From Utricularia gibba (lineage: Eukaryota > Streptophyta > Magnoliopsida > Lamiales > Lentibulariaceae), in the NCBI GenBank assembly GCA_002189035.1, contig NEEC01000017.1:434001-498000 (forward strand): a DNA stretch of 64,000 nt, written 5' to 3'. This document shows, in pieces, positions 6,135 to 63,484 of the stretch. The notes beneath the pieces were generated by a model. That model did not search any database, had not been told where the DNA came from, and saw only the letters and a program-made list of their open reading frames with translations. How positions within the stretch are numbered: position 1 is the first letter of the stretch; each line of letters starts with the position of its first letter. A program made the position numbers and the translations under genes.

Positions 6135-8956
6135 ATGTGTTCTCTGCATTTTCCGAATTGGGTTTGCTCCGAGCGTCCAATTTTCACCTCGGAGCGGGGG
6201 AGGAGCAGCAATGAGGGGATTCGTTCGTCGTTCTGGGTGTACATTTGGATTTTCGCGAAGGAGGAGGGAGGCGGCGGAGGGACGGTGCGAGGATTAACGT
6301 TGTCGCTATGTCATCAAATGAATTTAACATGAATTTGAATGAGTATATGGTGACGCTGGATAAACCACTCGGTATTCGTTTCGCGCTGTCTGTTGATGGA
6401 AGAGTGTCTGTACATGCGCTACAAAAAGGGGTACTGACTCTTCCTTAAATTCTTCTTCTTGTACCTTTTATCCTTGTTTGAAGTGTGCTGCTGCTTTTAG
6501 ATACGAGATCACGTAGAAGATAAGGAACATGCTCTGTTGCATTGAAGTGTAAAAGATTCTATGATATTCTCATAATCGACCTGTCTCAAGATCGTTTCAA
6601 TGAGAATTGAAGCTTAATTAATGTGAACGCAGGGCAATGCTGAGAAGTCGAGAATAGTTATGGTGGGTGACACATTGAAGAAAGCAAGCGAAACATCTGG
6701 TGGTAGGCTCATTGAGATCAAGGACTTCAATGATACCAAGTATGGATGAATTTTTATTTCAGTTATTGCTTCCATTCATAATTCAAGTGGAGTGAGTAGA
6801 TGAAGCTATTGTGTTCACTTCTTCTTTGCGTTTCACTTCAGGAATCTTACAAAAGAGAAATCTGGTTCTTTTAGCCTTGTACTTGAGAGGCCATACGCTC
6901 CATTTCCTGTCCATCTTGTGAATGACGCTGAATTTCGGTTCAACCGAGGCCGTGTTCCTGTGGCAACATGGAACAGTAACATACTGGCGTCATGTCAGCA
7001 AGAATCCAATGAGAGAAGCGGTGGCTCGGGTTTTGCAGTGTTTTGCCCGAAGTTCTTGAATTCTCAAGGGTGGAGAAATTTAGATGGCCACGAGAAGAAT
7101 GTCCCAACAAAGGTTCCAATTAGTCCCTTCATAGCAACTTTCACTGAGGAAATGCTTGAAGATGCTGAATGGGGGTATGGTAGTTTTCCACTAGATGAGT
7201 ATGCAAAGGCATGGGATCGTTCAAAGGAGGATCTTTACTACAATCATTCGCTTGGTATGCGCTACAACAAGGTGTGCCTTTTCAGATGGCTCGCATACTG
7301 AACTTTGTTTTCTCAATTTGCATACTCAACTCTTTGCTCATGTCTTTCATAAGCCCATATGTTCAGGTCTTGTAAATCTAAAACTGCGTTATTACTAAAT
7401 GATACTTCTCCATGATAGATTACGGAACAAATTTATGTGGGATCATGCATTCAAAGTGAAGAGGATGTAAAGAAATTGTCTACTGCGGTATGACATTCTG
7501 TGCTTTCAGTTGTCTTAACTTTTTGTTTGCTGCGCCTTCTAAGAACTAAAAAAAGAAAGAAAGATTCTTTCTCTGTGGTTCTCTTTTGTGTTCCTGATCC
7601 ATTTCCTGGTTGCTCTCATTTGATTATTTCAGTGACTTTGCCTCAGGGAATTACTGCTGTGCTCAATTTTCAGAGTGCAACTGAAGCTTCAAACTGGGGA
7701 ATTGATTTGAATTCCATCAATGAGTCATGCCAAAAGTGTAACGTTCTAATGATTAACTGCCCAATAAGGTGACCTTTTGGTGCTCCATAAAACAATCACG
7801 CAACTTGTTCTTCTCAACTTCCTGCTTTCGAACTTGATGCAACCCCTCTGGGCTCATATATTTGAGTTTCACTACCTTTTCTCCATACAGGGATGCAGAT
7901 TCTTTTGACTTGAGAAAGAAACTACCCTTCTGTGTTGGTCTTCTCCTCCGTTTACTTCGGAAAAATCATCGTGTTTATGTCACTTGCACCACCGGATTTG
8001 ATCGTTCACCTTCTTGTGTTATTGCTTACCTCCACTGGATGACAGATACCTCACTCCATGCAGCTTATAGTTTTGTCACTGGGTTGCACACTTGCAAGCC
8101 TTACAGGTTTTTTTCTTCTATTCCTGATGCTCCCCCTCCTGTTCCCACCCTTATCCTTCATATTTTTCCATATTCAGAGCTGCTATCGCATGGGGAACAT
8201 GGGATTTAATTGCAATGGTTGAGAATGGTACACATGAGGAGCCTACCCATGCAGTTGTCTTCGTGTGGAATGGCTTCGAGGTAATGCTTCTGCTGCATCA
8301 AAGTGATTGAGCTTCTTTGAAATCATGTTTCTGAACTTCAGGGTGAGGATGTGTGTCTTGTTGGAGACTTTACTGCTAATTGGAAAGAGCCCATCAAGGC
8401 TATACATAAGGGAGGAGCAAGATACGAAGCTGAGGTTCGACTTTCACATGGGAAGTAAGTCAACTTACTCAGGCTTGCTGGTTTTGTCACTCAAATTTCA
8501 CTGCATGATGGCAACAGTAACTCTGTAGGCTAACATACTGAGCCTTTTCTGGGCTTTCCATTTTGGTTTGAGATCCTTGGTTTTACAATACTGTATCCAT
8601 TACTTTTTCACAGATACTACTACAAGTATATTATCAATGGGAACTGGAGGCATTCAACCAGTTCACCAAGTGAAAGAGATGCGAGTGGGAATATTAACAA
8701 TGTAATAGTCGTCGGTGATGTGGCCAGTGTGAGACCTGTGTCTGCTGAACCAGTGATGAAGGTACTGTTTATTCTTATCATCTACTTAAGCTTTTCAAGG
8801 TGGCCCAATCTCACATGTTCTGCATTTTTTCAGGATGCAAACATTGTGAAGGTTATTGAACGACCGCTGACAGAAAATGAGCGGTTCATGTTGGCCAAAG
8901 CAGCTCGATGCATTGCGTTCTCGATTTGCCCCGTGAAGCTCCACCCCAAGTATTAG
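6135..8956 (+). CDS. LSF1: LIKE SEX4 1 (PDZ + dual-specificity phosphatase fold + CBM48), plastid; N-terminus frame-broken
   Basis: The secure part runs from the Met at 6308, with exons 6308-6430, 6633-6739, 6842-7271, 7419-7487, 7647-7768, 7891-8106, 8178-8280, 8342-8454, 8614-8761 and 8834-8956 (517 aa). In order: a PDZ-like region (MNLNEYMVTLDKPLGIRFAL), a dual-specificity phosphatase domain with the loop VTCTTGFDRS (Cys316, Arg322 from that Met) and a C-terminal CBM48 starch-binding module (VFVWNGFEGEDVCLVGDFT, KYYYKYIINGNW). LSF1 binds starch in chloroplasts and promotes night-time starch breakdown; in Arabidopsis it is thought to act as a scaffold for beta-amylases rather than as a phosphatase. 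The plastid transit peptide probably begins at the ATG at 6135 (MCSLHFPNW), but that frame runs off in the G-rich stretch at 6261-6280. One added G near 6266-6268 would join it to RRRRDGARINVVAMSS. Treat residues before 6308 as uncertain. Confidence 0.93.
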
Positions 8957-10181
8957 GAACCCGACTGGGACTGAGCACAAACAAGAGAACCAGTTAGGGT
9001 GCAGGAGCTCCATCTTTGCCTCGAGCGCGACTCTCGGATCAACTGGTTAGCCTGAGAGTAAGATGATGGCTGCTTGGTTTAGGGTTTTAGGGTTTTAGCA
9101 GGTGGATAAAAGTGAATGTTTCCTCTGTTCTGGTCGTGATCGATGGAAGATGAAATTGGAAATTGTGTTCATTTGTGCAAGTGGGGGAGCTGGATTTGAA
9201 ATCCCCACCAAATCATCGTGAAATAAAAACTGCTGGTCCCAAGGGAATCAATCCGCGCATGAAGCTAAGCTAGAGTTTGGTGTGGTTGGTGGATGACAGC
9301 GATGGGTTTGGGGCGGCGTTTCACAGAAAAGACGGAATTTTGAAGCGAGAAGGTTGAACTTTGCAAAGCGTCATGTCCAGTTTCAGTCCACACGAAAAGT
9401 GGTGGCTTTGGGAGCCGCGCCACTTGCATCACAAAATATTTCAATGGTGGCTGCTTTTCCAGCTCCACGCCAAACGATATTCAACTATATTCAGGGAGAT
9501 TTGGCTCGCGGACGACAGCAAAAGGCACCACCAAAGAAGGTTCCTTCGTTTGGTGGGACGCCATGGAACCAAAGGTGAACTTGGCTTCATCAATCTTCTC
9601 CACTCCTCATCAGCTATGGCGGCTTGCACACGTGGCTCGCCGGACCCACTTCGCCTTTTTGGGCTTTTTGTTTCCTGTGGCTGCTGTTAGCCATTTCCAT
9701 TTCCCGCTGTGTGCAGCTACGCGTAACGAGTAATTCCCTGATCGCTTGTCTCGGTTTTATCAACGCAGAAGGCAAGCGGGATCACAGCCTGCGTCATTCG
9801 TCTCTGTATCCTTTCTCGATTGTAGGGGAGAACAAGGTCGCCGGGAGTGATTGTGTTTCATGTATGTTGAAGCTTGCGCTTTTTCTTTCCTTTCAGGGAT
9901 TCTGCGCTTGATTTGCTTTTTATTTCTTTATGTCGATTCTAGTTCAAGTTTTTGATAGAGGTTGGAGGTTATGATGTTCTACTAGTTGCGATGAGATGCT
10001 GGTGTGTCTGTTCAAGGTTTTATTGTTGCAGATGAATGAATAGTTGCTTTAAGGATGCAAACTAGCTTCTGTATTGCATGATAGTCACTGGAACTGCTAT
10101 TTTTAACTGCTTGATTATTAGAATAGAGGTTCATGATGTTTTTCCTTCTAACTGTCTATTCTATTCACCAGAGTGCTCTAC
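8957..10181. other. Spacer between LSF1 and aspartate oxidase
   Basis: About 1.2 kb. It holds the LSF1 3' end and the upstream region of the next gene. Several short open frames near 9,260-9,700 overlap on both strands and match no family I know, so I do not call a gene. A 5' leader exon and intron for the downstream gene may lie around 9,600-10,170, but splice evidence is weak. Confidence 0.4.
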
Positions 10182-12726: not shown

Positions 12727-12918
12727 CAGAAGCTTAGATTTTGCATTGGGTCACTTCAGTTTTTCCCAAAATTATTGTCTTAATATCTCAACCATTGGAT
12801 TATGCTCTACAAGTGGTTTTAGGTGCAACAGAACCCTATTCATTGTTATAAATTTTATGCCAATGTTACATATAAATTTCACTATGTGATAGAAAGCCAT
12901 GAACAGTTGAAAGGAAAA

Positions 12919-15071
12919 TTATCGTGAAACCTGTATATTGTGTTGATCACAGCTGCGAGAATTCTTTGCGAACAATGCTTGCAATGATCTCGACTTTTTC
13001 TTCCTTGTAAATCCTGCTTCCTTCAATAGCTCCTCAAGCCTTCGCTTGATGTCTTCTGTGGTAGAATTCGCAGTCCCAAGCTTCTCCTCTCGCAACTCGA
13101 TGATGTACCCCAGGATTTCAATTGCATCAGATGTTCTGTACGTTGAAATCAACGGGTAAGTGCATAGATCTGTTTCTTCATAACGAAATGCAATACATGT
13201 GCACCATTATCTAACTCTGCATCTAAAATTTAGTTTTTACCTGCCCATGGCATCGTAGATTCCTGCAAGGTTACTATAAACTCCAAGTGTATCAGCATGA
13301 AAAGGTCCACATTCTTCCTCTAAAATGCCTCTAGATTCTTCAAACAAATCTGCAGCTTCATTAATGGCCAAAAGCTGCACACAAGCAAGTCCCATTTGGT
13401 TTAAAGCAATACCGAAAAGGGCAGATTTCTTTCCTCCAATCGAGCCAAATTTTGAAATCGCACTCTTGAGGTAGCTATAAGATTCATTGTAGTTTCCTAA
13501 AATAAAATGCAAGACTCCCATTTGAGCTTCAATGCCAGCACTGATGCTCAGGTGCCCCTCTACATGGTTATATTTTTCCAAGGCCTGTCTAAGTAAGTTG
13601 AGCGCCTTTTCTGGTTCATTTGAAGACTCGTAGAGAGCTGAGACAGCCACCAACCCACTGGCAATCTCCTCAACTGGGGCTCCCGGAATCGGCTTGTAGT
13701 AAATACGAAGAGCATTTTCACAGCAGGATTTGGATTCAGTGAGTTTTCCAATCTTGTTATACACATCAGCCAAACGGACAGAAACTGAAGCAACAGATGG
13801 ATGGTCCTCTCCAGTATGTGTTTTGAACATGTTTAGAGCTTTCTGATAGGCAAAAATGGCCTCATCATACCGAGCCATTGATAAATATGCGTCCCCAATG
13901 CAACAGTCTATGGATGCAACAGCCACATTCTGACCATTAGCAGCCACGGCCATGCTCGCAAGTACATAATGTTCCAGAGCACCTTTATAATCTCCTTTGG
14001 CATCGCAAATAAGCCCGAGCAATCTCCTGTCTTCGGCTCCCTGAGGAGAAGATGATAAGCCGTTCTCCTCAAGGATTGCAATAGACTTTCTACAAAGCTT
14101 CTCTGCCTCGTCAAATTGCAATGCTTGAACATGAGCTACAGCTACGTAGCTGCAAGCTTCGGCATATCGGGGGTCTTTTTCTCCAAGAACCTGGCGTTGA
14201 ATCTCTAACCCTACGCTGTAAAAAAATATGGATTTTTCAATTTGCTCAACCATTGCATAAGTATCACCCAGCTGCATGCAGCCAGAAAACTTGGCAAGGG
14301 CATAGCGGTGATCCAAATCTATCAATGGAATATCAATAGACCTCTCAAGAATTGGAATGGCCTCAGAATAGCGACCTATGCTACAGTATAACGCCGCCAA
14401 AACATGGAGACAATTAACATAGTCCAAGTTAGGCTTTTCATCTTCTGAATGTTCAAAAACCTTCTTTGCTCGAAGAGCTAATGCAAGAGCCTTTTGTGGG
14501 TTGTCCCCCAATGCCATTATGGACTTGGCCTGTTTGAGCAAATACGGCCCAAGATATCCCCTTTCACTGTGAGCATTGGTTCCAATGCTTTTCTCCTTCC
14601 TTGACTTGGAAACGTTTTTCATTCTCTCTTTCCCATTTTGGGTACCCTTCAAAGGTTTGCTACTCAAAGTAACGATTTTGTTTCCCTTGGAGCCAGCTTT
14701 CAAGGGGAGGATATTTCTTTGCCTGGTGAAGATGAGGGAATCTTCTTTTCACCAGCATTGTCCACTGCACCATAATGTCCACCGGCAAGAAATCTGAGCT
14801 CAGAATCTATTCTCGATTCTTCACCATATGATAGAAGACTCATCCTCGATGGAGAATGATCCGAGCTTTGCATCTCATATACATTATTATAGAGTTGCTC
14901 AAGGGAGGCTCCAGCCACAAAACCCATGGCTAAATCCAGAGACTCACTCCCAGAACCCCCACTAGTCGAAGGGCTTCTTGGAGATTTATCAGTGAGAACT
15001 TCCCTTCGCAAGACATCATTAAATCCTTGTTCACCTGCAAGTTGTGGATCACCTGCGGTAGTTTCAGTCAT
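12919..15071 (-). CDS. KLCR: Kinesin light chain-related TPR protein (KLCR/CMU family); one-base frame break
   Basis: Two coding exons on the minus strand, 13241-15071 and 12919-13135. The N-terminus has the conserved stretches SLEQLYNNVYEMQSSDHSPS and MSLLSYGEESRIDSELRFLA. The bulk is a long array of tetratricopeptide repeats, for example PILERSIDIPLIDLDHRYAL, AEKLCRKSIAILEENG and ALFGIALNQMGLACVQLLAI. Plant members (KLCR/CMU) sit on cortical microtubules and steady them against cellulose synthase movement. The frame is interrupted at about 14704-14707: the reading frame ends SSP-stop, while the family sequence continues LKAGSKGNK in the next frame. One extra C on the coding strand restores a 682-aa protein. 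A 56-nt GT-AG intron would also restore it, but that is very short for a plant. The start is the first ATG after the leader (MTETTAGDPQ). Confidence 0.93.
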
Positions 15072-16095
15072 TGGAGACAGATGCAATCTGCGATTTTGTC
15101 ACCAGTCACCACTGCCTATCCGCAAGAACAGACAATGATTTGTTAATAGTAGAAATCTTGGGGAAGGAATTCAAGGAAATCTTGCTGAGAATCATGAACT
15201 CAAGCCTATCCAATCCAAATTCAGCTTTTGGCTCAATCCTCCACAGTGTTCCATTGAAACAGAAATCCACAGCCGTAGTAAAATCTAAAATAACCACATA
15301 CCAGAAAAGACCAAATCCAAACAAGTTCTCCGCAGCAAGCATTCCATTTTTCAACTAAACATACATTTTCCCTATTCAACTAAACACATACACCATTAAA
15401 TATCACCAAGAAAGTAAAAAATTCAAAATTCTCTTGTGGGTAATAATTTCGGGTATTAATAGAGAAGCTGTAATTGTACACTTGCCAACATAAAAAGGCG
15501 TGGCCGAAACAACGCTACTAGCATAAGAAAAGATGATACCTGTATCTCCAGGCTCAGCCTTCCGGGTCAACTACGAGCGTTGTGTCTACATATGAATCCA
15601 GTTGTTTATATAATCCGATAGGCAGAGAGAAAATGCTGGTTAGGCTGAAAAACCGGATGATGAAAGAAAAACAATAACCACCGCTACAATGACTAGGAAT
15701 CAAACGCCTGCAAGTGCAAGCCCTGAAAACTGCAGGTAGGCCAATCGGCAGAACGAAGTTGTGAAAGGGAATCATGGCGATTTATTGTTAAAGCAAGAGT
15801 GAAAGCGAACAGGGACCAGAAAATAAAGGCTTGAAGCTGACTGAACACCTAGGTTTTTGAACCGCCTGCCGGAGCATCGGATCCCGGCCGCCGCTCCCGG
15901 TTCAAACCGCCCTTCCGTGATCTTTCATGTACGCGCCTTCTTTCATTTCACTTCAGATTTCAATTCTCCACTGTCGCCTTCTACACCATATAAAACCCCA
16001 ACTATAGCAGCACCAGTCCCCTTTCTCAACGTCAGAGGCGCAACCTTTTTATATAAAAATAATAATATTTTGTAATGATGAATTCGATTATTTAA

Positions 16096-16319
16096 AATAG
16101 TGTTTCGGAATATTTATTATGAATATTTATAATTTCCGAAAAATATAAAATATTAGTAGAAATAATTTATAAAAATAGAGATCTTATTACTTTTATTTTT
16201 TACTGTTTATAAAACTTGATTTTAAAAATATTTTTACTATAATTAAAAATAGAAATTGATTGTATTCCGTGCATAAATTATTTTTATTATTTCAAAAATA
16301 GAAATATTACGGAACACTG
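16096..16319. mobile_element. MITE-like element, copy 1 (224 bp, TTTAA flanks)
   Basis: An AT-rich stretch with imperfect terminal inverted repeats: the left end reads AATAGTGTTTCGGAATATTT and the right end, reversed and complemented, reads CAGTGTTCCGTAATATTT. TTTAA occurs directly on both sides (16091-16095 and 16320-16324), as expected for a 5-bp target duplication. There is no coding capacity. A related element of nearly equal length with the same flank lies at 32743-32975. The superfamily is not assigned. Confidence 0.6.
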
Positions 16320-16639: not shown

Positions 16640-16670
<31 letters not shown>

Positions 16671-16949: not shown

Positions 16950-18368
16950 ATGGCTCTCAGTCTCATTGCCCTCGTCGTCTTCCTCCTTCCCGTCGCCTCT
17001 CATGCCCAGAAGGTCTTCAACATCAACGACTTCGGCGCCAAGCCCGACGCAGACATCAGCCAGGTACTCCTCGATTTTGTCTTTTTCAACGGATTCTACG
17101 GGTGAATTTCTGCGATTGATGTGTTGTCCGTTCTCAGGCGTTGTCGAGTGCGTGGGCTGAGGCGAGCAAATTGACGGAGGCTTCTAAAATTGTGGTTCCG
17201 GCGGGGACATGGCAGTTGAGCCAAGTGAAGCTGGCGGAGAACAAAGCTCCTTTGGAGCTTGAGGTTCAGGGTACAATTGTGGCGACTGATAATCTGCCTG
17301 ACAAGCAGGCGGAGTGGATCACCATCAACTACGTTGATCATTTTACTCTCTCCGGCGGCGGCGTCTTCGATGGGCGTGGGAGCAGGCGTGGAAGCAAAAT
17401 GACTGCGACAAGAATGCTAATTGCGCCAAGCAGCCCATCGTAATTTCCTAAAACGAAAATTAATACTTCCTCTCGTGATGCAGATTAACCAATTGATCGG
17501 AATTGCAGAACTTGAGCTTCAACTTCATCAAGAACTCGGTGATCAGGGACGTGACGACCAAGGACAGCAAGAACTTCCACGTGAACTGCATCTCCAGCAG
17601 CAATGTGACGTTCCAGCGGTTCACCGTCTCGGCTCCGGGGGATAGTGTCAACACCGACGGGCTCCATCTAGCGAGGGACACCGGGGTCTACGTCCTGGAC
17701 TCCACCATCAAAACCGGCGACGACTGCGTCTCCATCGGGGACGACAGCCACGAGATCCACATTCACAACGTGGTCTGTGGCCCGGGGCATGGCATCAGCA
17801 TTGGAAGCCTCGGCAAGTTCGCCACCGAGAAGGATGTCAACGGGATCTTCATCCAGAACTGCACCTTCATCGGAACCCAGAACGGCGTCCGTATCAAGAC
17901 GTGGCCGTCGACGCCGGCGACTCTCCGCATCTCCGATCTCCACTTCGAGGACCTGATCATGCAGGACGTCAATAACCCCATCATCATCGACCAGGAATAC
18001 TGCCCATACAACCTGTGCAAGCTCGACGTAACCTCCTTCCTCCACGCATCCAATGACTACGCCATACGTATCTGCAAGTTCATCGATTTTAATCTATCTT
18101 TCGATGGCTGCAGAAACCATCCTTGATCCAGATCAGCGACGTGACGATTAAGAACGTCAAGGGGACCTCCATGACGGAGGAGGCGGTGACGCTGTGGTGC
18201 AGCAGCACCAAGCCCTGCCAGGGAATCGATATCTCGAACGTGGACATCAGTGGCACCGCCGGGAAGAAGGTCATTTCCAAGTGCAAGAATGTCCAGCTCG
18301 CCTCCACAGACGGACCGGTCGCCGCCGAATGCGCCACTAGCGCCAATAACGCCACTAAGGCCGCCTGA
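16950..18368 (+). CDS. Polygalacturonase (GH28, pollen exo-PG type); one-base frame break
   Basis: Exons 16950-17063, 17138-17439, 17509-18027 and 18114-18368. A signal peptide (MALSLIALVVFLLPVASHAQ) leads into the right-handed beta-helix fold. The four GH28 signature regions are present: VNTDGLHL, TGDDCVSIGDD, GPGHGISIGSLG and GVRIKTW, which carry the catalytic Asp residues and the His and Arg. The enzyme hydrolyses galacturonan in the cell wall, and the wording (KTGDDCVSIG, IDQEYCPYNLC) is close to pollen exopolygalacturonases. Exon 2 is 302 nt although both neighbouring splice phases demand a multiple of three. After VFDG the frame drifts, while the next frame reads WEQAWKQNDCDKNANCAKQP as in the family. 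One added G at 17372-17374 restores a 396-aa protein. It could be a real null allele, but the pattern matches other breaks in this window. Confidence 0.92.
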
Positions 18369-26324: not shown

Positions 26325-27849
26325 ATGGAGGAGGAGGGTTCGATCGGGGCGGGCGGAGGGGGGGCGTTTGTGAGGGCGGATCAGATAGATCTGAAAAGCC
26401 TGGACGACCAGCTGCAGAGGCATCTGAGCAGGGTGTTGAGTTCGGAAGGGGGAGGAATGGCTACCAGAGACGTTCGGGTGAAGAAGCGCCATGATTGGGA
26501 GATCGATCCTGCGAAACTTGTAATCAAATCTGTTATAGCGCGTGGGACTTTTGGAACCGTTCACCGTGGAACTTACGACGGTCAAGATGTTGCCGGTATG
26601 GTAGCCGTCGTGGTTTTGGGGGGTGAAATTGGGCGTTTTTTCAACTTTTTGTGGTTTTTTTGCAGTGAAGCTTCTGGATTGGGGTGAAGAAGGGCAAAGG
26701 TCACGGGCTGAAACTGCAGCAGTTAGAGCAGCATTTGCTCAGGAAGTGTCTGTGTGGCACAAGCTTGACCACCCCAACGTAACCAAGGTAAATAAACCAC
26801 CTTCAACTTGTGATGTACTGGGAATGCTTTGGGACACGAAAAAAAGTCCCTTCAGTTTTTTGTGTGCCACTTTTCGATGTCCCTGGTAAAATCTGCAGTT
26901 CATAGGGGCTTCGATGGACACATCGGATCTTAACTTACAGAGAGACAACAGTAACTTCGATATCTCCCAAAGGGTTTGTTGTGTTGTTGTTGAGTATTTG
27001 CCAGGGGGAGCCTTGAAAAACTTCCTCATTAAGAATTGTCGAAAGAAACTTCCTTTCAAGGTGGTCGTCCAATTGGCTCTGGATGTTTCCCGCGGGTAAG
27101 TAAATCCTTCACATGATAATCTTGATGGATACATGTGGTTATGCACAGGTCTGTCTGAATAGACGTTATTTTCCAGCTTGAGCTATCTCCACTCCAAGAA
27201 AATTGTCCACCGGGACGTGAAAACAGAGAACGTGCTGCTTGACAAGAATCGCACAGCCAAACTGGCTGATTTTGGGTTGCCCGTGTCGAGGCCTCGAATC
27301 CACATGACATGACAGGGGAGACCGGAACCCTTGGTTACATGGCTCCTGAGGTGCATCCATCATCCCCGCATTGCTTTTCTTCATGGTTCGAGAAGCTGAT
27401 AACTGTGGCTCTCTCTCTACCTGTTGTCTTTAGGTTCTGAATGGTAATCCATACAACCGAAAATGCGACGTGTACAGTTTTGGCATCTGCCTGTGGGAGA
27501 TATATTGCTGCGACATGCCGTATCCAGATCTCAGTTTCTCCGAACTCACCTCAGCCGTAGTTCGCCAGGTAAGGCAAAGTATCTGAGAGATGACAGCAGT
27601 CTGAATCCAAAACCTCCTGTCTGAACTAGATGAGTTGCTGCAGAATCTGAGGCCGGATATCCCCGGTGTTGCCCCTCCTCTCTGGCCAACGTGATGAGAA
27701 GATGTTGGGATGCAAACGCTGACAAGAGACCAGAGATGGAGGAAGTCGTCTCATTGTTGGAAGCCATCGACACCTCAAGAGGAGGTGGAATGATCCCCAA
27801 GGACCAAGCCCAGGGTTGTCTCTGCTTCCGCAAATACAGAGGCCCCTGA
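26325..27849 (+). CDS. Raf-like MAPKKK, C7 type (ATMRK1/CBC-like); two one-base frame breaks
   Basis: Exons 26325-26595, 26666-26787, 26899-27095, 27177-27350, 27434-27568 and 27644-27849. The N-terminus has the family stretch [20 protein letters not shown] and then [20 protein letters not shown] with the Gly-rich loop. Catalytic Lys92 follows ([10 protein letters not shown]), then HRDVKTEN (208-210) and the DFG motif (228-230). The C-terminus ends near [11 protein letters not shown]. Members in Arabidopsis (ATMRK1, CBC1/2) are cytosolic Ser/Thr kinases; CBC kinases act in guard-cell blue-light and CO2 responses. The frame breaks right after DFG (27274-27276, GGG where four G are needed) and again after RPDIP (27661-27664, CCCC where five C are needed). 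Adding one base at each place yields 368 aa matching the family throughout. As written, the protein would stop inside the activation loop. Confidence 0.93.
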
Positions 27850-36488: not shown

Positions 36489-39400
36489 TTACTCCTTTGG
36501 CTTTTTGCTCATTGCTTTCCTCTTGTTGACATCTAGATATCGCTTTCGCAGCCGGATTGCACTTGGGGTGACCTGCGTTTGGAGTAAACGCCATGTGATG
36601 CAAGAGGAAGAGATGGTGGGAAAAAGAGTTAATGGACTCTCAAGAGAAGATAAAATTTACCTCGATGAGTTCATCCGATGCGACGTACCCAATTGCTTCT
36701 TCAAGTGTCATCTACAAAAAAAGCAACTCAGTCTGATGGCAGCTCAAGCCAACATATGAAAAGAAAGCATGTATTTTACAGCGGCATAAAAGGAGAGTCA
36801 TGTGTGGATGATGCTGTGCATACCAGGCGTGGAGGGGTCAGCTTTACATTTTCATCTTTACTGGCAGCACGAATGTTTGTCAACTCCTTGGCTCGAACTG
36901 GGTTCACCTGTAGAACACTTGCATACATTACCCTGAAAGAAAATCATTCTGAAACTAAAACCACAGATTTTTCTCACATCAAGATCTGAGTCACGGGAGT
37001 GCTCGCCGATGATCATGCCATCGTAAGTCTGTCACCAACATATGAGAGGAATCAAAATGGATATACAAGTAGTTGACACTGTCCAACATCAAAGAAGGTA
37101 GCTGTTGCAACCTCCATTCCTGGTTTGACAAAAAGTATTCCTCGAGCTTCTAAACTCATCAGTGCATGAGCTGTGATTGTTCCATTTCCCATTGATACCT
37201 ATTCAAACAAGGTCAGTTATGTCCCAAGAAAGATCGAAACTAGAGAAGCTATGCATAATAAGTCACATGGAATTAGGGTATTGAGAAGCAACATGCAATC
37301 AATAGGCTGGAAGGAAAGCTATTCCTAATAAAACAACGCCATGGTTCATGACATGAAAATTTTTTGGATCATATAAAAAGTTCAGGCAATAACACGTCGC
37401 AGGGAAAATTTTTAGATGAGTGTCAGGAAAGACGATAAAACTGTTTCTAAACACATCACTACTCAATTGTCAACAGTTTCATTGTCACGAGGTTATCAGA
37501 AGATGCAAAAAGCAAGTAATAATGTGCTTTGCAAGAAAAGTAATAAAGTGTAGAGCATTACTAGCACTCCCTTTCTGACATTTCCGAGGGGACCACGATG
37601 CTTTTCATAAGCTGCATGAAAACATAAATCAAATAAAGTCTTCCAATAAAAGAAAAGGAAAAAAAAAGGAGTCTGTAATTGGGCATATAGGATGCTGCAA
37701 AAAAAAAAAAAAATCCTAGCATGAGAGACAACAGTAGATAGCATGACTGGAGACGCTTTGTTCTTTAAAATGCATTAATGCACAGTGCACTATCACAATC
37801 AAAATCTAGCACAAAGGAAAATCGTACTCAGGAATGCACGGTGCATAAACCCGGTGCCTCTTGTGTCACTGCTGAATACGCTTCTATACCCAACCAAACC
37901 CCTGTGATAGCACGAAACTATCGGTATCAGTGTTAAAGAGGAATAGATTCATAATTAGAACATTATCGCCATGTTCCATTATAAGGGAAGAGGTGCTTGA
38001 GACAAAGGAGATTGCGGAGGGGGATGATACATGCCTGGAAGGGCAGGTGAGACAAATTCTAGTTCTGCCAATGCTACGAGGGACTTCACCCATATCAGTA
38101 ATAATACCTCTTCGATGAGAGAGAGCTTCCATGACTAATCCCACATGCTCCTCATTTACCTGATATAAAAGAGAGGCAAGCCATGTATTGATACTGAAGA
38201 GGTGTTCAAAGTCAGGTCAAGGGTAGTAGCAGAGTTAAAACCTCGATGGTAACTTCTTCTATCGGCTCTAGCTTTTGTCCATTTACATTTTTATACCTGG
38301 CCCAAATATAGAAACATGCTTAATCATGGAGAAAATGATTTCAAGAAATGGATGGAAATTTATCATGTGCCTATTTCAAGCATCCATGCTTTTTTTTTGG
38401 AGAAATGAATGCATCATACAATACATATATCAATGGAGCATACAATCCCATCTCTCACCCTCCAAAAGTTAAAATGGAGAAAATCAAAATAGGGTCAATG
38501 AAGTCAAGAAAATAAAAAAGAGCAGAATAATGTAGGTATTATCACAAGGGAAAATACACACATGACTTTAGGAGGCGAAACAGAGAGCTCAAACTTTTCT
38601 CGTCTCATGTTTTCAATAAGGATACCTGTTACAATAACAAACAAAAACATGTGAGCTTTAGAACAACAATTACATGTCCATAACCACTGACTGTCAATAG
38701 CAGATTGGTTTTTCAGAAAGAAATTTGTTTCAGAGACAACGGGAAGTCGCTCACCCAGTTGAAGCTCCCCCTCCCTTGAACCTCGTAAGAGTCTGACAAC
38801 CCAGGAAGCACATTAATTGCAAGATTCCGCTCAGCTTCAGCCAGCAGCCGATCACCAATTTGCCTTCCAGTTAACTGTAGTTGATCAGATAAATCGGAGA
38901 TGAGCATAAAATGGCATCATCGTAAAATGAGCGACTTTTAAGGTATACAGGTTACAAAAATAGTATAAGGTAATAAGCAGCATTTTTAACAAAAAAAAAA
39001 TGAACAAACGGGGCACGTGGCCCAAAAAAGAAAAACTAACATATGAAAAAATCGCAACAGCGTCTAAGAGCAGAGCAGCAAAATTGTGAGTTCGCATACA
39101 AAAGCAACGTGAACACCAGTTGTAGCTCTGAATGGAAAAAATAAGAAAGGTTGATACAAATGAAGAAATCATACATAAGTACCATCTCGACCGGCCAGTG
39201 GAGAATCGTTTACACCAAAAGTCATAGATATGGTTGGAGGGTCAAGTTCAACCGTGGGTAGAGCTGTCATGACCTGTCAAAATCAAGGTTTTTGTAGAAT
39301 AAAACGCACAATCGAATTCAAATAAAAACTAATCGAAGAACTAATTTTTCTCCCAACATTATTCCTATGAAACCTCCAGGTTTGAACAGTTAGTACACAG

Positions 39401-41931
39401 CACGCCATCACCAGTATCTGGTTACCCACTGTTTCTTTTAAATGAAATGCACAAGAAAGCTAGCGAGTACACAGAAAAATTAAAAAAAATTGAAGACAAC
39501 AGACATCTGGAAGTACAGCAAAACATGTTTTAAGGTCACCAGCAACTTGGTATAAGTTGTTTGATTTAGATAACAAAAAGAAGCATCAATCAAGAATTTT
39601 ACCTCAACACTGCTGATAGTGTGCCCTATTGCTGGACTGGTTAAACCCGCCAAAGATATTATGTCACCAGCACCAGCACTATCTACTGAAACAGTATCTG
39701 TTCCAATCTTTTTCATCAACTTCACAACCTATAAAAATGCATGAAACACGGCTTTTTACCACAAGCATTCAAAAGCTATCATGTCCAATTTCCAAACTAC
39801 AAAGAAGTTCCAATGTGGGGATTGGTGGACAGGGGAGGGGATGGATATTCATAGAAATGCAATTATGAACCTTCCCCTCTTCAACTTTCATGACCCCAGA
39901 GTCCGTGGCACGAAGACCTTGAACTCTATCACCTACTTGGATAATTCCAGAATAGATCCGTCCGGTTAATATTCGTCCAACAAAGTTGTCTCTTTCCATC
40001 ATAGACACCTGAAAGGAACTGTCAACTAAATCTCTCAAGGTTCTCCTAGGCATAACCATGCACAGCTTGTAACTATCATGCCATAATTTCAAAAAACGTA
40101 AATACTTCAGGACTAACCAGCATCTGAAAAGGTTCATCAATGCTAACATTTGGCGGAGGAACATGCCTGATGATAGCATCAAGCAAGTCGGACATATTCC
40201 TTGTTTCATCAGGAGGATTTTTTGTATAAGTTGATGATGCCCATCCTTCCTTTGCGGAAGCATAAAGAACAGGGAATTCCAGTTGCTCCTCTAAGAGAAG
40301 TTATGAAGTAAAGAAATACAGTTAACACGAACTTTACACACTGAGTAGGTGAAATTAAATTGAGCGACAAATATTATCAAGTACCTGTAGCACCGAGATT
40401 AGCAAAAAGATCAAACACCAGGCTCTCGACTTCACTGCACCTTTCTTCAGTGACTACACAAATGATGCCCACGAAAAGTTTGAAGTCACGTGGAGTATTT
40501 CCAGAGAATGTTAAATAAAAGGATGAACATGGTAATGACAGCATGTTAACAATATTACCTGATGGGCGGTCAACTTTATTTAAAAGAAGAAGAGGACGCA
40601 GTCCATATTTTAGTGCCTTGGCTAGTACAAATTTTGTCTGAGCTAGAGGACCTTCACCAGCATCGACAACTAAAATTGCCCCCTCAACCATGCCCACCAC
40701 TCGTTCAACCTATGCAATAGGTTAGAAAATAAACCTCATTGTGTTAAGAAATATGAAAGATGCAATCCCCGAAAACGGATTCCATCAAAATATTAAAATC
40801 AATCCTTATATCCTGATATTTTCTAAAAAAACATAAAAAATGCCTTCATCCGAGATTTAAAACGAGCAGCATACTTCACCACCAAAATCTGCATGTCCTG
40901 GAGTATCAACCATGTTTAGCTCACTTCCTTTCCAAGATATAGATGTGACCTGCGGGTTGTAAAAACACATAAAGATATGAAAAAGCAGGAAATTTTTACT
41001 TTGTTGGAAAGTGCATAATACACAAGAATATGTTAGAGCAATTCAATATCCTTAAACTGAGTGGCTCATTTCATCCATAAAGAAGTAACTTTCACAGATG
41101 CCTATGAGTTTACCGAAATTTTCAGAATATCCTGAAGGAAGTTAAGTATCAAACATATATATTAGCTGCAAACGCCGAACTCTAAGGATACAACACGTGA
41201 GGAACACTAGATGCAGAAACAACACTGATGCACTGACTCAGACGAAGATACCTCATCCAAGCTTACATCAACCTACTACCCACCGAATAGGAGCAGCCGT
41301 AAGTCCGGCCTTTTTGTCATCATAGCCAGTAGACTTGTTTTAAGAACATTTACCGCCCAAAAAGAGCATTGATCAAACAAATTTTGTGAAAAACAGCGTA
41401 GATTGATTGATTTTAACAACCAACTAAACCAAGGGAAAGATGGTACACAAGCAGAGAAAGAAGAATCTGGAATTTTGCAATAATCTCAAGCCTATATTCT
41501 CCATATCTGAATCATCTGAAAACATTTCAACGGACTTCAACCAAATAGTTTGTCTCAAAGAAGAAAATTAAAAAATTGAAACTTCAGACACGTATGGAGG
41601 AAACCACCTTCGAGGCGATGGTGATGCCACGCTCCCTCTCCAGGCTGATAGAATCCAGCGCCCGCTCATGAGGAATATCTGCGCCACACTGGCGAAGGAG
41701 ACGATCCATCAACGTGGTCTTCCCGTGATCAACATGGGCTATCACCGCCACATTCCTGAGCCTATGAGGATCAAAGGCAGAAGGCGAGGCATCCGGAGTC
41801 GAAATAGACGAGGCGGAAGAGGAGAACCCCTGCACCAACCATGGCGCGCGTGGAAAAGAGAGGCGCTTTAAATAATTAGCCGACAATGATTTTCCGGCGG
41901 AGCGCAACGAGCGAAGGATCGGTGCCACCAT
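36489..41931 (-). CDS. TypA/BipA translational GTPase, organellar (EMB2785-like); one-base frame break
   Basis: Nineteen exons on the minus strand: 41608-41931, 40875-40949, 40559-40709, 40385-40453, 40118-40290, 39871-40008, 39603-39728, 39175-39273, 38755-38874, 38562-38625, 38242-38296, 38035-38159, 37828-37901, 37562-37611, 37112-37198, 36978-37028, 36824-36907, 36661-36711 and 36489-36572. A Ser/Arg-rich targeting peptide precedes the G1 motif AHVDHGKTT (65-73). [16 protein letters not shown] and [10 protein letters not shown] mark G3 and G4. EF-G-like domains and the BipA C-terminal domain follow ([51 protein letters not shown]). BipA binds ribosomes and assists assembly or stress translation. 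Exon 9 has VQGRG then SFNW; one extra C at 38767-38771 (plus strand) gives the expected VQGRGELQLG and 666 aa. The intron after exon 12 appears to start with GC. Confidence 0.94.
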
Positions 41932-42700
41932 TTGTAGCACCGGAGTTCACTCCCGCTTCACTTTTTCCGGCAAACCCCGTCGTTAGGGTTTTAGGTAACC
42001 GTTAAGCTGATGCCAAAATATACCGGGCCATGATGGTGGCCCAACTATTCAGGGCTTCCTTCAAAGCTGGTGCCCGGCCTGGCCTATCCATTCAGGCTGC
42101 CCTGGCCGACCACTGTAAATTAAGAAAATAGGCTTGCCTCGATTTTTTATTTTTTTTTGGGATGAGGTTTAGGGTATCAAAGAATTTAATCTCTAAATTT
42201 TAAAATTACAATTATAGTTTGTTCAATTTATATTTTTTGTAAATAATTTGCTTTGTAACTTATAAAATTATATATTTAATTCTTCATATTACTAAAATTA
42301 ATAAATGTTAATCTCTAATATTATTTTAATGATACATCATTATAAATTGTATTTATAACTATCATTCTTCATTCTCTAATGGTCTTATTTTTATCGAACT
42401 TTAAAAATCACGATATATAAACATGATATGACTCCAACAAATGATTTTGATTTATTGAATTCCATATACAAATGTGATAATTTTTATTTACAATTTGAGA
42501 TATTTTTTAATAATTATAAAACTTTAGAATTAAACTATTTATACGAATTTAAACTTTAATTCGTTGTTTTTGTAATTTTCACATTTTTTTATACGCCGGA
42601 ACCTGTCGTCACTCCAACGCTTGAACGACATGGTAGGCTTGTGTATTTTTAACCAGAATGCAGAAAATCCCAAATTCGGGCTTTGAGTTTCAACTTAATA
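41932..42700. other. Divergent promoter region between TypA and PPR genes
   Basis: About 0.77 kb shared upstream region of two divergent genes for organelle-type proteins. A Site II-like TGGCCCAA lies at 42037-42044, about 110 bases before the TypA start. The middle (42,140-42,590) is AT-rich. Confidence 0.5.
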
Positions 42701-43750
42701 ATGCAAGCAATTGCTTTAGAAACCGGTACATTGGCGTCGACGGCGGCAAGGCTCCGTCGACTTCTCCGGCCCATCAGAGTGAGTTTCCATCAGATTTCAT
42801 CTTGTGCAGATCCTGTTGCGGAGTCAATACAAGCGGCGGTTGAATCCAAGAATTACGATCAAATTCCTGGTCTCCTTGATTGCGCTGGCGCTTCTTGCCC
42901 GAGCAAAAATCCGTTCTTGTTTCTCTCTAATCTCTCTGAATCTCGTCAGATTCAAGTCATTGATGACATTTTACAGTCATTCATCCCCATCCGCCCTCGA
43001 TATCGGCTCCGTTTTGCCCACTCTTTTCTTCTGCAATATGCCCTTGAAAGCCCAAATCTAGTTCCACTCTCCCTTGCCGTCGTGCAACGCACTCTCCGTT
43101 GTGGCTGTATTCCTACCCCACAAACTCATTCCCTTCTCTCGAAATCATGGACTGAACGCCGTCGCCGACCGCAGCCGGTTTCATGTATTATGTCTGAAAT
43201 GAGATCTTTGGGGTACACGCCAGATTGTGGGACGTGTAACTATCTGATCCTTTCACTCTGTAAAGATGGCCATCTTGAAGAAGCTCTCTCAGTCTTGCGG
43301 GAAATGCAGAAAGCAGGCTCCGTTCCCATTTCTGACAGCTACGGTATCATTCTGGATCACATGAGTACTCTCAAAAGAAGTAGCAATAAAGTTCTAAAAT
43401 TGTTCCAGGAGATGGTATCTGTGCATTGTTTGAATCCTGGAAAAGATACAATCGTGAAAGCCATTGCTGGTATGCGGGCCAATGGAGATACCCGGAGAAT
43501 TGTCGATTTGATTGAGTTTTTGGAAAATGAGAATGTAGATGTAGGATTTGTGGAATATGAATCAGCATTGGAGGGCTGCGTGGAGGCTTACCGGTGGGTT
43601 TTGGCCGGAAAAGTCGCCGTCAAAATGACCGGGAATGGGTTCATTCCATACATAGGAATGAGGCAAAGCGTAATAGAGGGGCTTGTCAGCGTTGGTGAAC
43701 AAGAATTTGCTTCAGTTGTGAGACAGCAGTTTGCAAGATTGAAATCTTAG
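42701..43750 (+). CDS. Pentatricopeptide repeat (PPR) protein
   Basis: A single-exon gene of 349 aa, as is usual for plant PPR genes. The N-terminus is basic and hydroxylated (LASTAARLRRLLRPIRVSFH) and looks like an organelle targeting sequence. PPR-like helices are clearest in the middle: GYTPDCGTCNYLILSLCKDG then HLEEALSVLREMQKAGSVPI, followed by SDSYGIILDHMS. PPR proteins bind organellar RNA in a sequence-specific way to guide editing, splicing or stability. There are only about five to seven recognisable motifs and no E or DYW tail, so it is a short P-class member. The length and wording recall the Arabidopsis At1g06270 group. Its stop codon lies only 119 bases from the stop codon of the convergent SWI2 gene. 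Confidence 0.88.
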   Translation: MQAIALETGTLASTAARLRRLLRPIRVSFHQISSCADPVAESIQAAVESKNYDQIPGLLDCAGASCPSKNPFLFLSNLSESRQIQVIDDILQSFIPIRPRYRLRFAHSFLLQYALESPNLVPLSLAVVQRTLRCGCIPTPQTHSLLSKSWTERRRRPQPVSCIMSEMRSLGYTPDCGTCNYLILSLCKDGHLEEALSVLREMQKAGSVPISDSYGIILDHMSTLKRSSNKVLKLFQEMVSVHCLNPGKDTIVKAIAGMRANGDTRRIVDLIEFLENENVDVGFVEYESALEGCVEAYRWVLAGKVAVKMTGNGFIPYIGMRQSVIEGLVSVGEQEFASVVRQQFARLKS

Positions 43751-43869
43751 ACACAAGTGTCTCAAACCGATGCATCTACAAGCATTGTGCAGGGTGATCA
43801 TTTTTGCCTTGTCCGAACAATCTATCTGTAAGATTAAACTATGTATAAGTACAGCACATCTTGGAGGAA

Positions 43870-46800
43870 TCAACTAAGGCTAAGGGGAGGTTCAGAGAGC
43901 AGCATCCTGTTCAGTTCATCCTCACCAATGCCCATCAGTGCGGAAAGAATGCCAAAATGCTCGGGTTCTATTTTCTTTGGTGGCTCTAAATTCATTTTCT
44001 CCACCTCACCAACTGCGTTGCCTTGTGATTCTGTTATTTTCTCAGCCAATGATTGTGGCTCTTCAACTGCGCCGCACTGTCGTTGTACTCTTTCCTCACC
44101 CAGGGACTGTAGCTCTCCAACTGCACTGTCATGTAGTTCCATTCTTTCCTCAGCCAGTGATTTTGGTGGCTGTTCTGCCTCTTTCATCAGCAAGTGATTG
44201 TGCCTGGCCCGTGTACCATGATCAATCTGGGATCTGAAGTTAACAACATCTTCATTGCGGTGCACGTAAACAACGCCTGAAACAGCACACAAGGATGCAG
44301 GTATAAGTGTCACATAATGTTAATGATTACACAATTTCAATCCTTGAACTGAAACTATCAGTACAGGGACTGCAGAATACGAAGATTAGGATGAGCTCAC
44401 CAAGATCTTGTAGGTGGGGCTCGATTCTTGTTCTCTTTTCTGCAGGGAGAGTGCTTAGAGAAGTTGATGAGTGCTTATGTACTGTTCCACTCTGCGAACT
44501 CACACCGGCTTCAGTGTAACCACGTTGTTGGATATGATCATGAGTGGAGCTTTTATCTCGGTTACCATGGGATTCAATGATCTCACTAGTGAAAAGCTTG
44601 TCCGAAAGATCACGGAACAAGTTGCAGATGCCAAAAAGCTCACCCTTGAACTCCTTGCAATCCTTCACAAATGGATCACTTCAGGTGATTTGGGACAGTT
44701 CTTGGTAACATGCGAAATACTGTCATACGGACTTCTCCCTACCTGTACTCCCTCAAAGTACCGCTTCTCCATTTTCCCAGAAACAGCAATATTTGATAGC
44801 TGCTGTTTGTAGATCTGTCGAGTATAGACAAGCTCCTCGAGAGAACCAGCTGCGAGGAGACGGAAAACAGTTACATGGCGTTTCTGGCCAAACCGAAAGG
44901 ACCGGTCTTGCGCCTGCAAATCGTGAGATGGATTCCAGTTTGGGTCAAAGACCACTACCCGGTTCGCAGCTGAGAGGTTTATGCCAAGACCACCAGCTCG
45001 GGTGGAAATCAGGAACACCTGAACCCAGAAATACAGATTCTTATGGTTTGAGAAAGCAAAGGTGTGTAGCATGTGGATATAAGGGATCCCACTTGTTTGC
45101 TGGGGCTTGAGGTGAATTCCTCGACAAGTGAGAGGCGAATGCCCGTAGGAGTTGAACCATCCAGTCTCAAAAAGTTGTACCCTTTTCGAATGACGAACTT
45201 CTCAAGTATGTCTAACATTCTGTAGACGAATTGCAGACATTTCGAGGAAATCGCAGGTTTGTAAGGATCCCAGTGGATGTTCTAAGATGAGAAATTATAT
45301 TACCTTACTGAATAGCTGAAAAGAAGAATCTTGTCACCTTCAGAAATCCAGGATCGCATTAACCTCTCCAAAGTTCTCATTTTTCCGCAGTGTTGCACGT
45401 CGCTCAGGCCCATGAAACTGTCATTCTGAGCACTGCCACCCACAGAACCATCTTCATCAAACACTGAAGCAACAAATTCTGCATCTCTTCGCTGCTTATC
45501 TGGATCATCCTTCGGGTTTGGCTTGACAAGCTCAAGGTGATTGCTTATCTGCAGGTTACAAAACTCCAGTCAGATTATCTGTAAAAACCGATGAGTACTT
45601 CAACAAGAAAGTAAACTAGTGGTTATGAGGCTACCTGCTGGAGCTTAACCAGGCAAGGAAGAACGATACAAAAGGGGCAAGAGTCACAGCCCTCTGGATT
45701 CTCATTGTGAAGATGAGGCCAAATGACACCATCCGGGACCGTACGTTTGCAGCATTCGAACTGTTTGAGAGGGCTCCCACAACTGCATGGCAGGTCCTTG
45801 TTGACGAGGCATTGGATGTCCGGGAGCTGCAGCGTTCTCCGGTAGACCTCTTTTTGCATCTGACTCATAGAACAGAAAACGATGTTGTCTTCCTTCCCCT
45901 TCATAAGATGCGCAATTGTTTCATCCTTGGTTCTTCTAAGCATGTATTTCTGTAAAACAGAAGCTAAGTGACGTTTTCTCTCCTCTGCAACTTCAACAAA
46001 CTTTGTGGGTGCACTCAATCTCTGCCCAAGCTTCAGGGGTTCGTCATAAAATTCCCGAAAATGTTCCCTGCTTCCTAATCTTCCAGGTACCACCCAATCA
46101 AAGAGATTGAACAGCTCCATGATCTTGTTCTGCATCACTGTCCCAGTGAGACCATAACGCTTCAGTGTCTTGATCTTCATACACTCGACATAAAGCTTGG
46201 ACTTTTCATTCTTCAGCCTGTGCACCTCATCAACAATTACAACTTCCCACAGAACACTGGACAGTGCACTCTGTTGCATTCTGTAGGTGTCAAAACTGGT
46301 TATAATAACCTCCACAGCCCCGCTTGCTAGCTTTTCTAGAATCAAATCCCGGTTTGGTCCATGGTAAATGGAAACCCTGAATGTGGACCATCTGGAAAAT
46401 TCCTCCTCCCAGTTAAGAATGACCGAGCTCGGACCAATGATGAGGACAGGGCCTTTCTGATGCTGTTTCCCTGAGCCCGCCTCTGAACCTTTGCCATAAA
46501 CAGCCGCCAGCATTGCAATTGTTTGGATAGTCTTCCCCAACCCCCTGAAATTCAGTAGAAAAAACAACGGGGAAAGTTCAAATTCAACGAACAAGGCGAT
46601 CTTTGCCAATGATAAGTCACAGGAAGAACATTCCATGACAGAAGCAGAGATCTAAAAGAGCAACTCAGATTATAGAAAAGTGTTTTGATTTCTCCAAGGG
46701 CAAGTTGCTAATCACCATAAAAGTCAAATTATGGAGCAAAACCAAGAAATGAAAACTGATGCTCACATATCATCTCCAAGAATCCCTCCATGATTGTTCC

Positions 46801-50015: not shown

Positions 50016-52034
50016 TTAGCAAATATCCTGGTTGTGCCTTATTTTGCGTGAGACTGACCGGCCCATTCGACACCTACGAGACATGAGAGCTTCAAGAAGA
50101 ACTTCCAGTGCAAATTCGAGTGCATTGGCCTGCTCTTCCAATCCTGCAGAACTAAGCTCGGGAATGTGGTGGAGTTCATGAAGGAGACCGATCGCTGCAG
50201 CAGCTGTACAAGTGCGGTCCCAAGATGGTTGTGGTCTGAAAGTTTAAGACAAGGTTGAGGAACTTTCAAACAGGTCCCCTTCATGAGAAGAGGCTATAAA
50301 ATTGGATGCTCAGCAGCTGATTAAAACTAAAACACATGATGCCCGAAACGTCAGTACCTTAGTTTATGCATCACTGATGCGCCTGTGTTCAATGACATGC
50401 AAGAAAGTTCTTGACCCCATAAAATATTTGCTCTATCCTGCAAGGAAATCCAGCTGAGAGAAAATGTTTGAAATTCATGATTTCATTTTTCCAGAAAAAG
50501 CCTCTATCTGTGAATATACACGAGCTTCAATATGCCAAAAAGCAAATCGTTTGCCATCACACCTGCAAACGGTGCAACATTGCAGATGAATTGCTCCATG
50601 TGCCATCAATCAAGATAAAGTGGATCACGTGACTCTCTTTTGCCTGCATACCATTGTGACACAAATTTGGAAGTAAAAATGGAGCAAAGAAAAGGTGAAA
50701 ACAAGAAAAAGCTGAGACCACAAAAGGTAGAGCAGACTATAGGAAGCTTAAATATGGAAAATTGAGAAGAATGAACTGCTACCTCTGGATTCTCACTTAT
50801 TTCATTCAAGAAGCTTACTGCATCAGATACTGTCGCAGCGTTAGTATTTGGATACAGACACCAGACATTGTCTCTCCCTGAAAAGATGCAATTTAAACAT
50901 ACACAGCACTCCAGAGAAAAAAAAAACTTGAGTGACACATGGTGCAGACATATACAATTGTAAGCGCATAACAATTTCAGAATGCTAAGGAAATTCTAGT
51001 GAATCAAGAAAGCCAGAAATGCGCTGTGGGCCGCATACCAGCATGAATGAAGGAATTCCACATCATGTCCTCATGCTCAGCAATGCCATAGAGGCATAGG
51101 CTTGCAGCATCAATGTCAAAAACTTGCCATAACAACTTCCCAGTATTGTTCTGCCTCAAAAAATCCTGAAATAAAAAGAAAGATCAGATACCCTTTTGAT
51201 CTTCAAACGGAATCACCCTAGATCAACTTCTCGGAGCAATGGAGTATGCTCCCGTAAAACTAGTGACATCAACCAAAAAGGCACACCTTTGGATGCATAT
51301 ATAACCAAATGTGCAGTTTTGGCCAGAGAGAACACATATTAATTCTTGAGCACATGCAATCACTCTGAGCAAGCCAGCACTGTGAAAAGGTCGGAGAAGA
51401 GAATACAGGAAATGCTTATGGGAATTAGAATGCGATTCCACGTAAAAATAACATAAAATCCAGAACTACGCCATGTCAGCTTACCCTCTGACATAAATAT
51501 CCTCTACTTCCAAGCAAACGGCAGGCGATTTGTCGAGCTGAGAAGAACTGTAGTTTCTCCTCCGAGCTACTTAAAGAAGCATATTTCTGCCTGTGTTTCT
51601 TGTCTTCTTGGATCTTGAAGACTCCCTGGAATCACCAAGAACGAGAGTTGGGGAAAAAGAACTAAGCAAAGCATACCAATAACAAGAAACAATCTTTCAT
51701 GCATAATATATCACCCATCGCCAAATATCGACATTCAAGTGGCAATCCAACCAAAACTACAGAGGGTAAAAGGCATCGCATTACTGGGGTCCACTCAGAC
51801 CCAATACCAATCTACTAATATCAACAATGAAGACCGAGTTTGGGATTATCACCGTCAGCGTCCCGTGGTTCCCATCAAACGTCATGGGGCATTCATTTGC
51901 TTCTCCAAAAGCTTCAAATCGCGAACGACTTGATCCACCGCGGATGGAACGGGTGAGACGGAGCCCCAAGCTTGCCATTCTTGCAAGCTAATGGGCGCAC
52001 CGGCTTCAGCTTCTGATTCTCTGCCACTCGACAT
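50016..52034 (-). CDS. DTW-domain protein (tRNA-uridine aminocarboxypropyltransferase type); one-base frame break
   Basis: Eight exons on the minus strand: 51853-52034, 51485-51625, 51287-51379, 51039-51165, 50783-50877, 50563-50643, 50358-50437 and 50016-50235. The N-terminal part has SLQEWQAWGSVSPVPSAVDQ. A small cysteine cluster (GYLCQRCWLAQSDCMCSR) and the DTW signature in LIDGTWSNSSAMLHRLQ follow, then LRPQPSWDRTCTAAAAIGLL. DTW proteins such as bacterial TapT and human DTWD1/2 use S-adenosylmethionine to make acp3U in tRNA. In exon 1 the frame runs MNAP-stop, while the next frame reads MTFDGNHGTLT and leads into the splice site. One base added to the GGGG at 51886-51889 (plus strand) repairs it to 339 aa. 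An in-frame ATG at 52166 would add 44 residues rich in Arg/Lys that could target mitochondria. Confidence 0.9.
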
Positions 52035-54842: not shown

Positions 54843-54945
54843 GTTAGTTGGGCGGTAGTTCAGGTCAATAACTTCGAGTGCTCCTTCCTTTTCCTTGGTT
54901 AATCAATAGGTTGGTGGTTAGGTGGGCGGTAGTTCAGATCAATAA
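54843..54945. repeat. Pair of near-identical 29-bp direct repeats
   Basis: A 29-base stretch around GGGCGGTAGTTCAG at 54843-54871 recurs at 54917-54945 with two differences, 74 bases apart. Both copies lie in the probable leader intron of the RMA gene. Confidence 0.7.
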
Positions 54946-55164
54946 TGACTAACAGTTAGCTGATGTAAGCGCCTTTGTATCATCATATGATGCTTCTTGA
55001 CCGTACCTTGAAATCATCCTGTATTCTAAAGTTGGTGCACCTATCTTCAAGAACGTTGTATGATGCTTTGATTCTGTATTTGTGTTGGTGCATTTTGCTC
55101 TGTTTGTGGTAACCAAATCGCTGACGAGACAATCTGCTTTTTTAACAGGCTTGCTTGTGTTGAG

Positions 55165-58384: not shown

Positions 58385-58806
58385 CACCCTTCCAGATGGG
58401 CCCGAATTCCCGTAAACCAGATCGCCTAGGGCTTTATGAACGCCTAAATATTTAATATTTAATCTAAATGCCACGTAATAAATTTCACTTATTTAATTTA
58501 TATACTTCAATTAAATATTCTGTAATTATTCAAATTTCAGACTGGATACTAAATCAAATATCATTTTATTATCAATATCCAATACCAATTAATAAACATA
58601 ATTTCAATATTTAGACAAAATATTCTTATAAGGTCATTATGAAAAGCGATATATTATATGTTAATAGTAGACATCTTACAAACAATTATTCTTTAATTTA
58701 AATACAATATGATTATATATTAAATATCTTATTCTACTATTCGATTCTTATATATAGCGTTTGATGCAAGGGTCGAATTCCATCTCGTTAAGTAATAATC
58801 TTACAA
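58385..58806. other. Divergent promoter region, CPBP and F-box genes
   Basis: A 422-bp AT-rich shared upstream region of two divergent genes. No further motif stands out. Confidence 0.4.
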
Positions 58807-62271: not shown

Positions 62272-63484
62272 TTACGCACAGGGGACATGCTTGTTGAAGA
62301 AGGTGAGGAGAAGGTTGTTGACTTGCAGAGGGAGTTGTTCTTGAGCGAAATGTGTTCCATGGGGAAGGAACTCGATTTCAAGATCAGGAACATATCTCTT
62401 CACATCCCCATTTCTTATATACTCTTCAAGCCCTGCAAATTTCATGGCGTAGTCCTTCTCCCCAACTATCAGTAAACAGGGAACCTTCACCTTCACCTCA
62501 TCAACACCATAATCCTCAAGCCATGCCCTGCAAAGATCGAAAACTGTTTTCACAGGGTCATCCTTGTTTTGGTTAACTTTGGTGGTCGTGTTCACCTGTA
62601 GGGAACCTGTAGTGCTGTTTCGAAACCAGATTTTGTGTAGAGAGAAGCGTAGATATCGAGATCATGGTGTGTGAACCAGTGAGGGAGGGGGTTGCAGGAT
62701 CCACTAAGTCCATAATTTCTTGATCCGCCGCCGCAACCGGAAGCTCGCTGCCGGAGAAGAGAATGTAGATGTTCCTTATCACTGTTTTCACATCAAAGCG
62801 TGCGAAGTCCTTCTCAGCTCTCAATGGCTCCTGCAAGAAAGCAGCATTTAAATGGATGAATTTTCTGGTAGCGTGTTGTGATTATTGCGGAGATGGTTTT
62901 TGAGGGGACTTGCTTGCCATCTCAACATGTAGAACCCACTGGGGAGATCATCTTTAGGGAACGCCGCTGGTCCGGCGAGCATGAACGGCACACCGATGGT
63001 GGCGACGGCCGCCAGTCGATTTGGATGGTGTAAAGCAAAATGATAAACAACTCTGGCTCCAAAGTCTTTACCAACCAGTAGAATCTGCATGATCCCCAAT
63101 TAGAAAACGCTATTTTGATTCTCGATTCAAACGACACCCAAAACCCTACCTTTTTGAGGTCGAGATTGTCGATTAAACACAGAAGATCGTCGACGAGATC
63201 CTGGAAGCTGGCTTTATGGGGCTCCGGCGGCTTCTCTGATAGGCCGTAGCCGCGTGCATCCGGTGTAATTGCACGGAACCCCGCGGCGGCGGCGGCCAGC
63301 ATCTGGTGCCGCCATGAGTACCATATCTCCGGGAAGCCATGAATGAAGAGCACCGGCGGGCCTGAAGATAACAATTAGAAATCTCGAAGGGATTTAACCG
63401 AAAAGTTTACAGACCTGATCCAATCTCTGCTACATGAATTTTCAGGCCTCTGACATCAATGAAACTATGCCGAATTTCGTCCAT
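62272..63484 (-). CDS. Soluble epoxide hydrolase (alpha/beta fold); one-base frame break
   Basis: Exons on the minus strand: 63415-63484, 63150-63361, 62914-63084, 62596-62830 and 62272-62527. The start MDEIRHSFIDVRGLKIHVAE is typical. The oxyanion motif HGFPEIWYSWRHQ (31-34) is followed by RGYGLSEKP, the nucleophile region LVGKDFGARV (Asp101), the acid in VGEKDYAMKF and the catalytic His in PHGTHFAQEQ. The enzyme hydrolyses epoxides, for example of fatty acids or cutin precursors, to diols. In exon 4 the frame reads PATPSLTG, but the next frame gives the lid sequence LPHWFTHHDLDIYASLYTKS and joins exon 5 correctly. One more base in the GGGGG at 62687-62691 (plus strand) gives 314 aa. The intron after exon 3 begins GCAAGT, a GC donor. 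Confidence 0.92.

Follow-up and report, generated by a model that had tools for sequence, protein, structure and literature searches.

Errors of the kind described here are already known from long-read assemblies. An HGAP/Quiver/P6-C4 assembly retained 205 indels after polishing, nearly all of them in homopolymers of G or C (PMC4832174). The genome of Utricularia gibba is available as a PacBio-only HGAP assembly at 88x with a contig N50 of 3.4 Mb (PMC5793159). We analysed a stretch of 64,000 nucleotides from this plant (the window), which is part of contig C328 in an assembly of 100.09 Mb and 516 contigs. An earlier, sequence-only reading had claimed that eight conserved genes in the window are broken by a total of nine one-base losses, each at a run of G or C. 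Our analysis supports eight of the nine losses and seven of the eight broken genes, and does not bear out the site at 6266-6268. With a probability of roughly 95% in our estimate, the breaks stem from errors in the consensus of a long-read-only assembly and not from biology. Run lengths disagree between contigs of one locus, the errors are biased towards G and C, losses outnumber gains, and the pattern is spread over the whole genome.

All reading frames around each of the nine claimed sites were inspected. At the eight supported sites, the upstream and downstream coding frames are offset by one base with no space for an intron, and all eight sites adjoin runs of G or C and none a run of A or T, as had been claimed. 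In five genes, homologs of solved structure flank the break on both sides, in the kinase gene at both of its sites. This Raf-like MAP3K gene on the plus strand is broken at its DFG motif (27274-27276), where the kinase profile changes frame and MAP3K/CTR1 homologs span the site, and a second time at 27661-27664, with MAP3K/CTR1 kinase homologs on both sides and an alignment to 5HES that locates the shift at 27665-27669, beside the C run. The selenium-binding protein gene on the minus strand (33505-33507) is matched on both sides by 2ECE (E 1.6e-30); the alignment localises the shift to 33507-33508, and a codon-usage scan blindly flagged 33500. Similarly, a plant epoxide hydrolase gene on the minus strand matches 4UFP and 2CJP before as well as after its break at 62687-62691, and a codon-usage frame switch lies close by. 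The break in the TypA/BipA GTPase gene (38767-38771, minus strand), in the GRGEL motif close to the end of an exon, was identified by frame reading together with 4ZCK, whose match reaches the motif and resumes in the next exon; this alignment is weak because the exon stops just past the break. Placing the shift by a single distant PDB sequence failed or was imprecise for BipA, the epoxide hydrolase and the kinase site at 27274.

The polygalacturonase (GH28) gene is broken within 17372-17390 on the plus strand, and the ADPG2 polygalacturonase 7B8B matches both sides. The 7B8B alignment puts the frame shift at 17378-17388, and an 84%-identical ohnolog on contig C255 has one extra base at or beside the GGG run at 17378-17380. 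From these alignments, the most likely place of the loss is in or next to this run. The position given earlier (17372-17374) is therefore about six bases too far upstream, though the better place is a G run as well. Independently of the breaks, positions 5018-31800 of the window correspond to an ohnologous block on the same contig (C255, 3041259-3059166) that is 71-83% identical across several genes, which is consistent with whole-genome duplication.

Two further breaks were assessed by other means. In the TPR gene on the minus strand (kinesin-light-chain-related, KLC-like), the run at 14704-14707 is one base short and the gene is divided between the open reading frames 15098-14700 and 14748-13237; a TPR match is found in the downstream frame, and paralogs on C505 and C1 are uninterrupted across the site, each as one frame of about 650-660 codons. 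A small plant protein gene on the minus strand, which we take to be of the EWQ type, is single-copy with no paralog in the assembly; the break near the end of its exon 1 (51886-51889) follows from its own gene structure, as the next exon is in phase with the downstream frame only. The unsupported site lies at the 5' end of a PDZ gene on the plus strand that is presumably ZKT-like and is also single-copy. The conserved part of this gene lies entirely downstream of 6266-6268, with nothing conserved across that position, and no single upstream frame stands out as the real one. A Pfam search gave no match for either the ZKT-like or the EWQ-type gene.

How unusual it is that all eight breaks fall at G or C can be estimated by using run counts from GRAS genes as base composition. 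About 6.3% of the bases in GRAS coding sequence lie in G/C runs of at least 3 and about 8.8% in A/T runs of at least 3, and on this basis the chance of eight out of eight is about 1e-3 if every break is forced into a homopolymer of some kind, and about 1e-10 if breaks fall at random. By a rough estimate, the window has eight breaks per about 25 kb of coding sequence. The statement that fourteen other genes are unbroken is covered in part: the codon-usage scan, which recovered 14 of 21 GRAS events, revealed no further frame switch outside introns among the junctions inspected. Two codon-usage switches, at 2651 and 18109, have the sequence of short introns, and those at 1112, 19797, 44668, 62875 and 63016 were judged to be introns from the reading of the open frames.

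The seven genes might be recent pseudogenes with true one-base deletions. Small compacted plant genomes do lose duplicates, and paralogs exist in several of the families concerned. However, the sequence is conserved on both sides of each break, and the breaks without exception take the form of a single base missing from a G/C run; pseudogenes should show relaxed constraint and further disabling changes, and the flanks still appear conserved. We therefore consider real gene decay very unlikely, and the systematic under-calling of G/C runs, which had earlier been preferred over decay, is demonstrated directly by two further lines of evidence, redundant contigs and a survey of the GRAS family.

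Several small contigs repeat stretches of large contigs nearly without substitutions, namely L023 (C422), L014 (C316), L045 (C377) and L047 (C251), so that one locus is assembled twice. Over 53.7 kb of aligned redundant pairs, we counted 17 substitutions versus 67 one-base indels, the reverse of the pattern expected from mutation, and one 10-kb stretch has no substitution and five homopolymer indels. Contigs of one locus that have almost no substitutions between them differ by this very signature, which also speaks against gene decay. Among runs of length 4-6, the main contigs lack one base in 11 of roughly 242 G/C runs and in 2 of roughly 823 A/T runs (Fisher p=4.9e-6), and for G/C runs the proportion short by true length is about 3/200 at length 4, 7/46 at length 5 and 1/7 at length 6. 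Runs of A or T also fail once they reach at least 9 bases (4 of about 21 short on the main contigs), and exons are without such runs; the lack of A/T breaks in exons is thus partly due to the shortness of exonic A/T runs. A GRAS gene that is open on the redundant contig C422 is broken on the main contig C414, and the two copies show no substitution over 1,279 bases; the broken copy lies less than 3 kb from the end of its contig, a region of possibly low coverage.

The existence of these small contigs could in principle reflect haplotypes or recent duplicates, and run-length alleles of a heterozygous plant might have been collapsed into one consensus. Alleles should differ mostly by substitutions, though, and an excess of indels of about 4:1 does not fit; moreover, the breaks in coding sequence are nearly all losses. 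Mixed haplotypes are accordingly an exceedingly improbable source of the breaks. A search of the window for redundant contigs (three 20-kb stretches outside 40400-44100) found none that is near-identical among the matches listed, which comprised diverged copies and dispersed repeats. Separately, a dispersed repeat of about 245 bases at 32737-32983 occurs 80-86% identical in at least 40 places with both strands matched, and is probably a palindromic MITE-like element; two more short dispersed repeats, at 16092-16309 and 73-335, are found on many contigs. A plastid genome, sought as a high-coverage control, was not found in the assembly, where only short Photo_RC fragments turned up.

A survey of G/C runs in other conserved exons had been proposed in the sequence-only reading as a check, and GRAS loci throughout the genome indeed show the same type of break. 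We chose this family for its mostly intronless genes, took 40 loci genome-wide and scanned them blindly by frameshift-aware alignment to a profile built from intact members, with two intron or intron-like loci set aside before breaks were counted. Eighteen breaks outside introns were found, affecting 14 of the 40 loci on many contigs. Twelve of them lie at G/C runs of at least 4, versus 1.49 expected from matched intervals drawn in intact loci (0 of 5000 draws reach 12), and none at A/T runs of at least 4, versus 2.0 expected; about one third are at G/C runs of at most 3 or are unplaceable. At about one break per 2.7 kb of coding sequence, the GRAS loci come near the density of the window. Almost all of their breaks are losses, typed as -1 (or +2/-2), and the +1 calls sit at introns or at the intron-like loci L033 and L040. 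One GRAS locus, L042 (C3:261080-262360), has three apparent breaks and a lower score, and the few loci with multiple breaks may be real pseudogenes. UDP-glycosyltransferases were tried as a second survey family and left out of the counts because introns and divergence hamper the placement of breaks.

Within the GRAS family, one Gly-Gly-Pro-Pro motif is broken in five paralogs, only where its codons form a long G/C run. With L033 omitted because of an intron there, the break is present in all 3 loci whose observed run is 5-6 long, in 2 of the 11 whose run is 4 long, and in none of the 25 whose run is at most 3. Where paralogs encode these residues by different codons, the frame is intact; the break therefore tracks the DNA run rather than the position in the protein. 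This dependence bears on the idea that the short runs, or some of them, are true and that programmed frameshifting, polymerase slippage or insertional editing rescues the genes when they are expressed. Such a rescue could account for conserved genes being broken at homopolymers and for one motif being affected in five paralogs. However, a conserved frameshift would track the protein position, and paralogs that avoid the run are intact at this very motif; nor can rescue explain why redundant contigs of one locus disagree in run length. Hence, we give only a minute chance to true short runs rescued in this way, and an equally slight one to such a rescue for some of them.

Consensus error of the long-read assembly would operate as follows. 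Single-pass reads would tend to drop a base within G or C runs, and the consensus would then be fixed with one base too few. Longer runs are more often short of a base, as the counts above show, and the genes that look broken would be intact in the plant. From the assembly statistics and the literature, we infer PacBio CLR reads and HGAP/Quiver as the probable source.

These errors matter for any use of the assembly. About one third of the GRAS loci (14/40) look broken, and most of them probably are not. If used unpolished, the assembly will yield overcounted pseudogenes, truncated proteins and tiny introns, and the duplicate small contigs inflate gene counts, while they can serve to estimate consensus accuracy. 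The error recurs at conserved motifs whose codons form G/C runs, such as Gly-Gly-Pro-Pro in GRAS proteins, and therefore paralogs can share a false break that mimics an inherited frameshift. Before gene loss is claimed in this plant, short reads or transcripts should be consulted.

In Plasmodium falciparum, a PacBio assembly likewise contained long-read consensus indels that led to false frameshifts (PMC5964635). Nearly all of those indels were in homopolymers of more than 14 bases, whereas short G/C runs dominate in the genes studied here. A close parallel is Streptomyces albus SM254, sequenced with PacBio CLR reads and polished with Quiver, where one-base errors at G/C runs likewise produced false frameshifts in intact genes (PMC4832174). 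In contrast to that bacterium, the plant genome is AT-rich and the runs concerned have only 4-6 bases, and short-read polishing is absent here as far as can be told from the assembled letters. The density of errors, about one per 3-5 kb, exceeds the 205 per 7.2 Mb reported for Streptomyces albus SM254 (PMC4832174).
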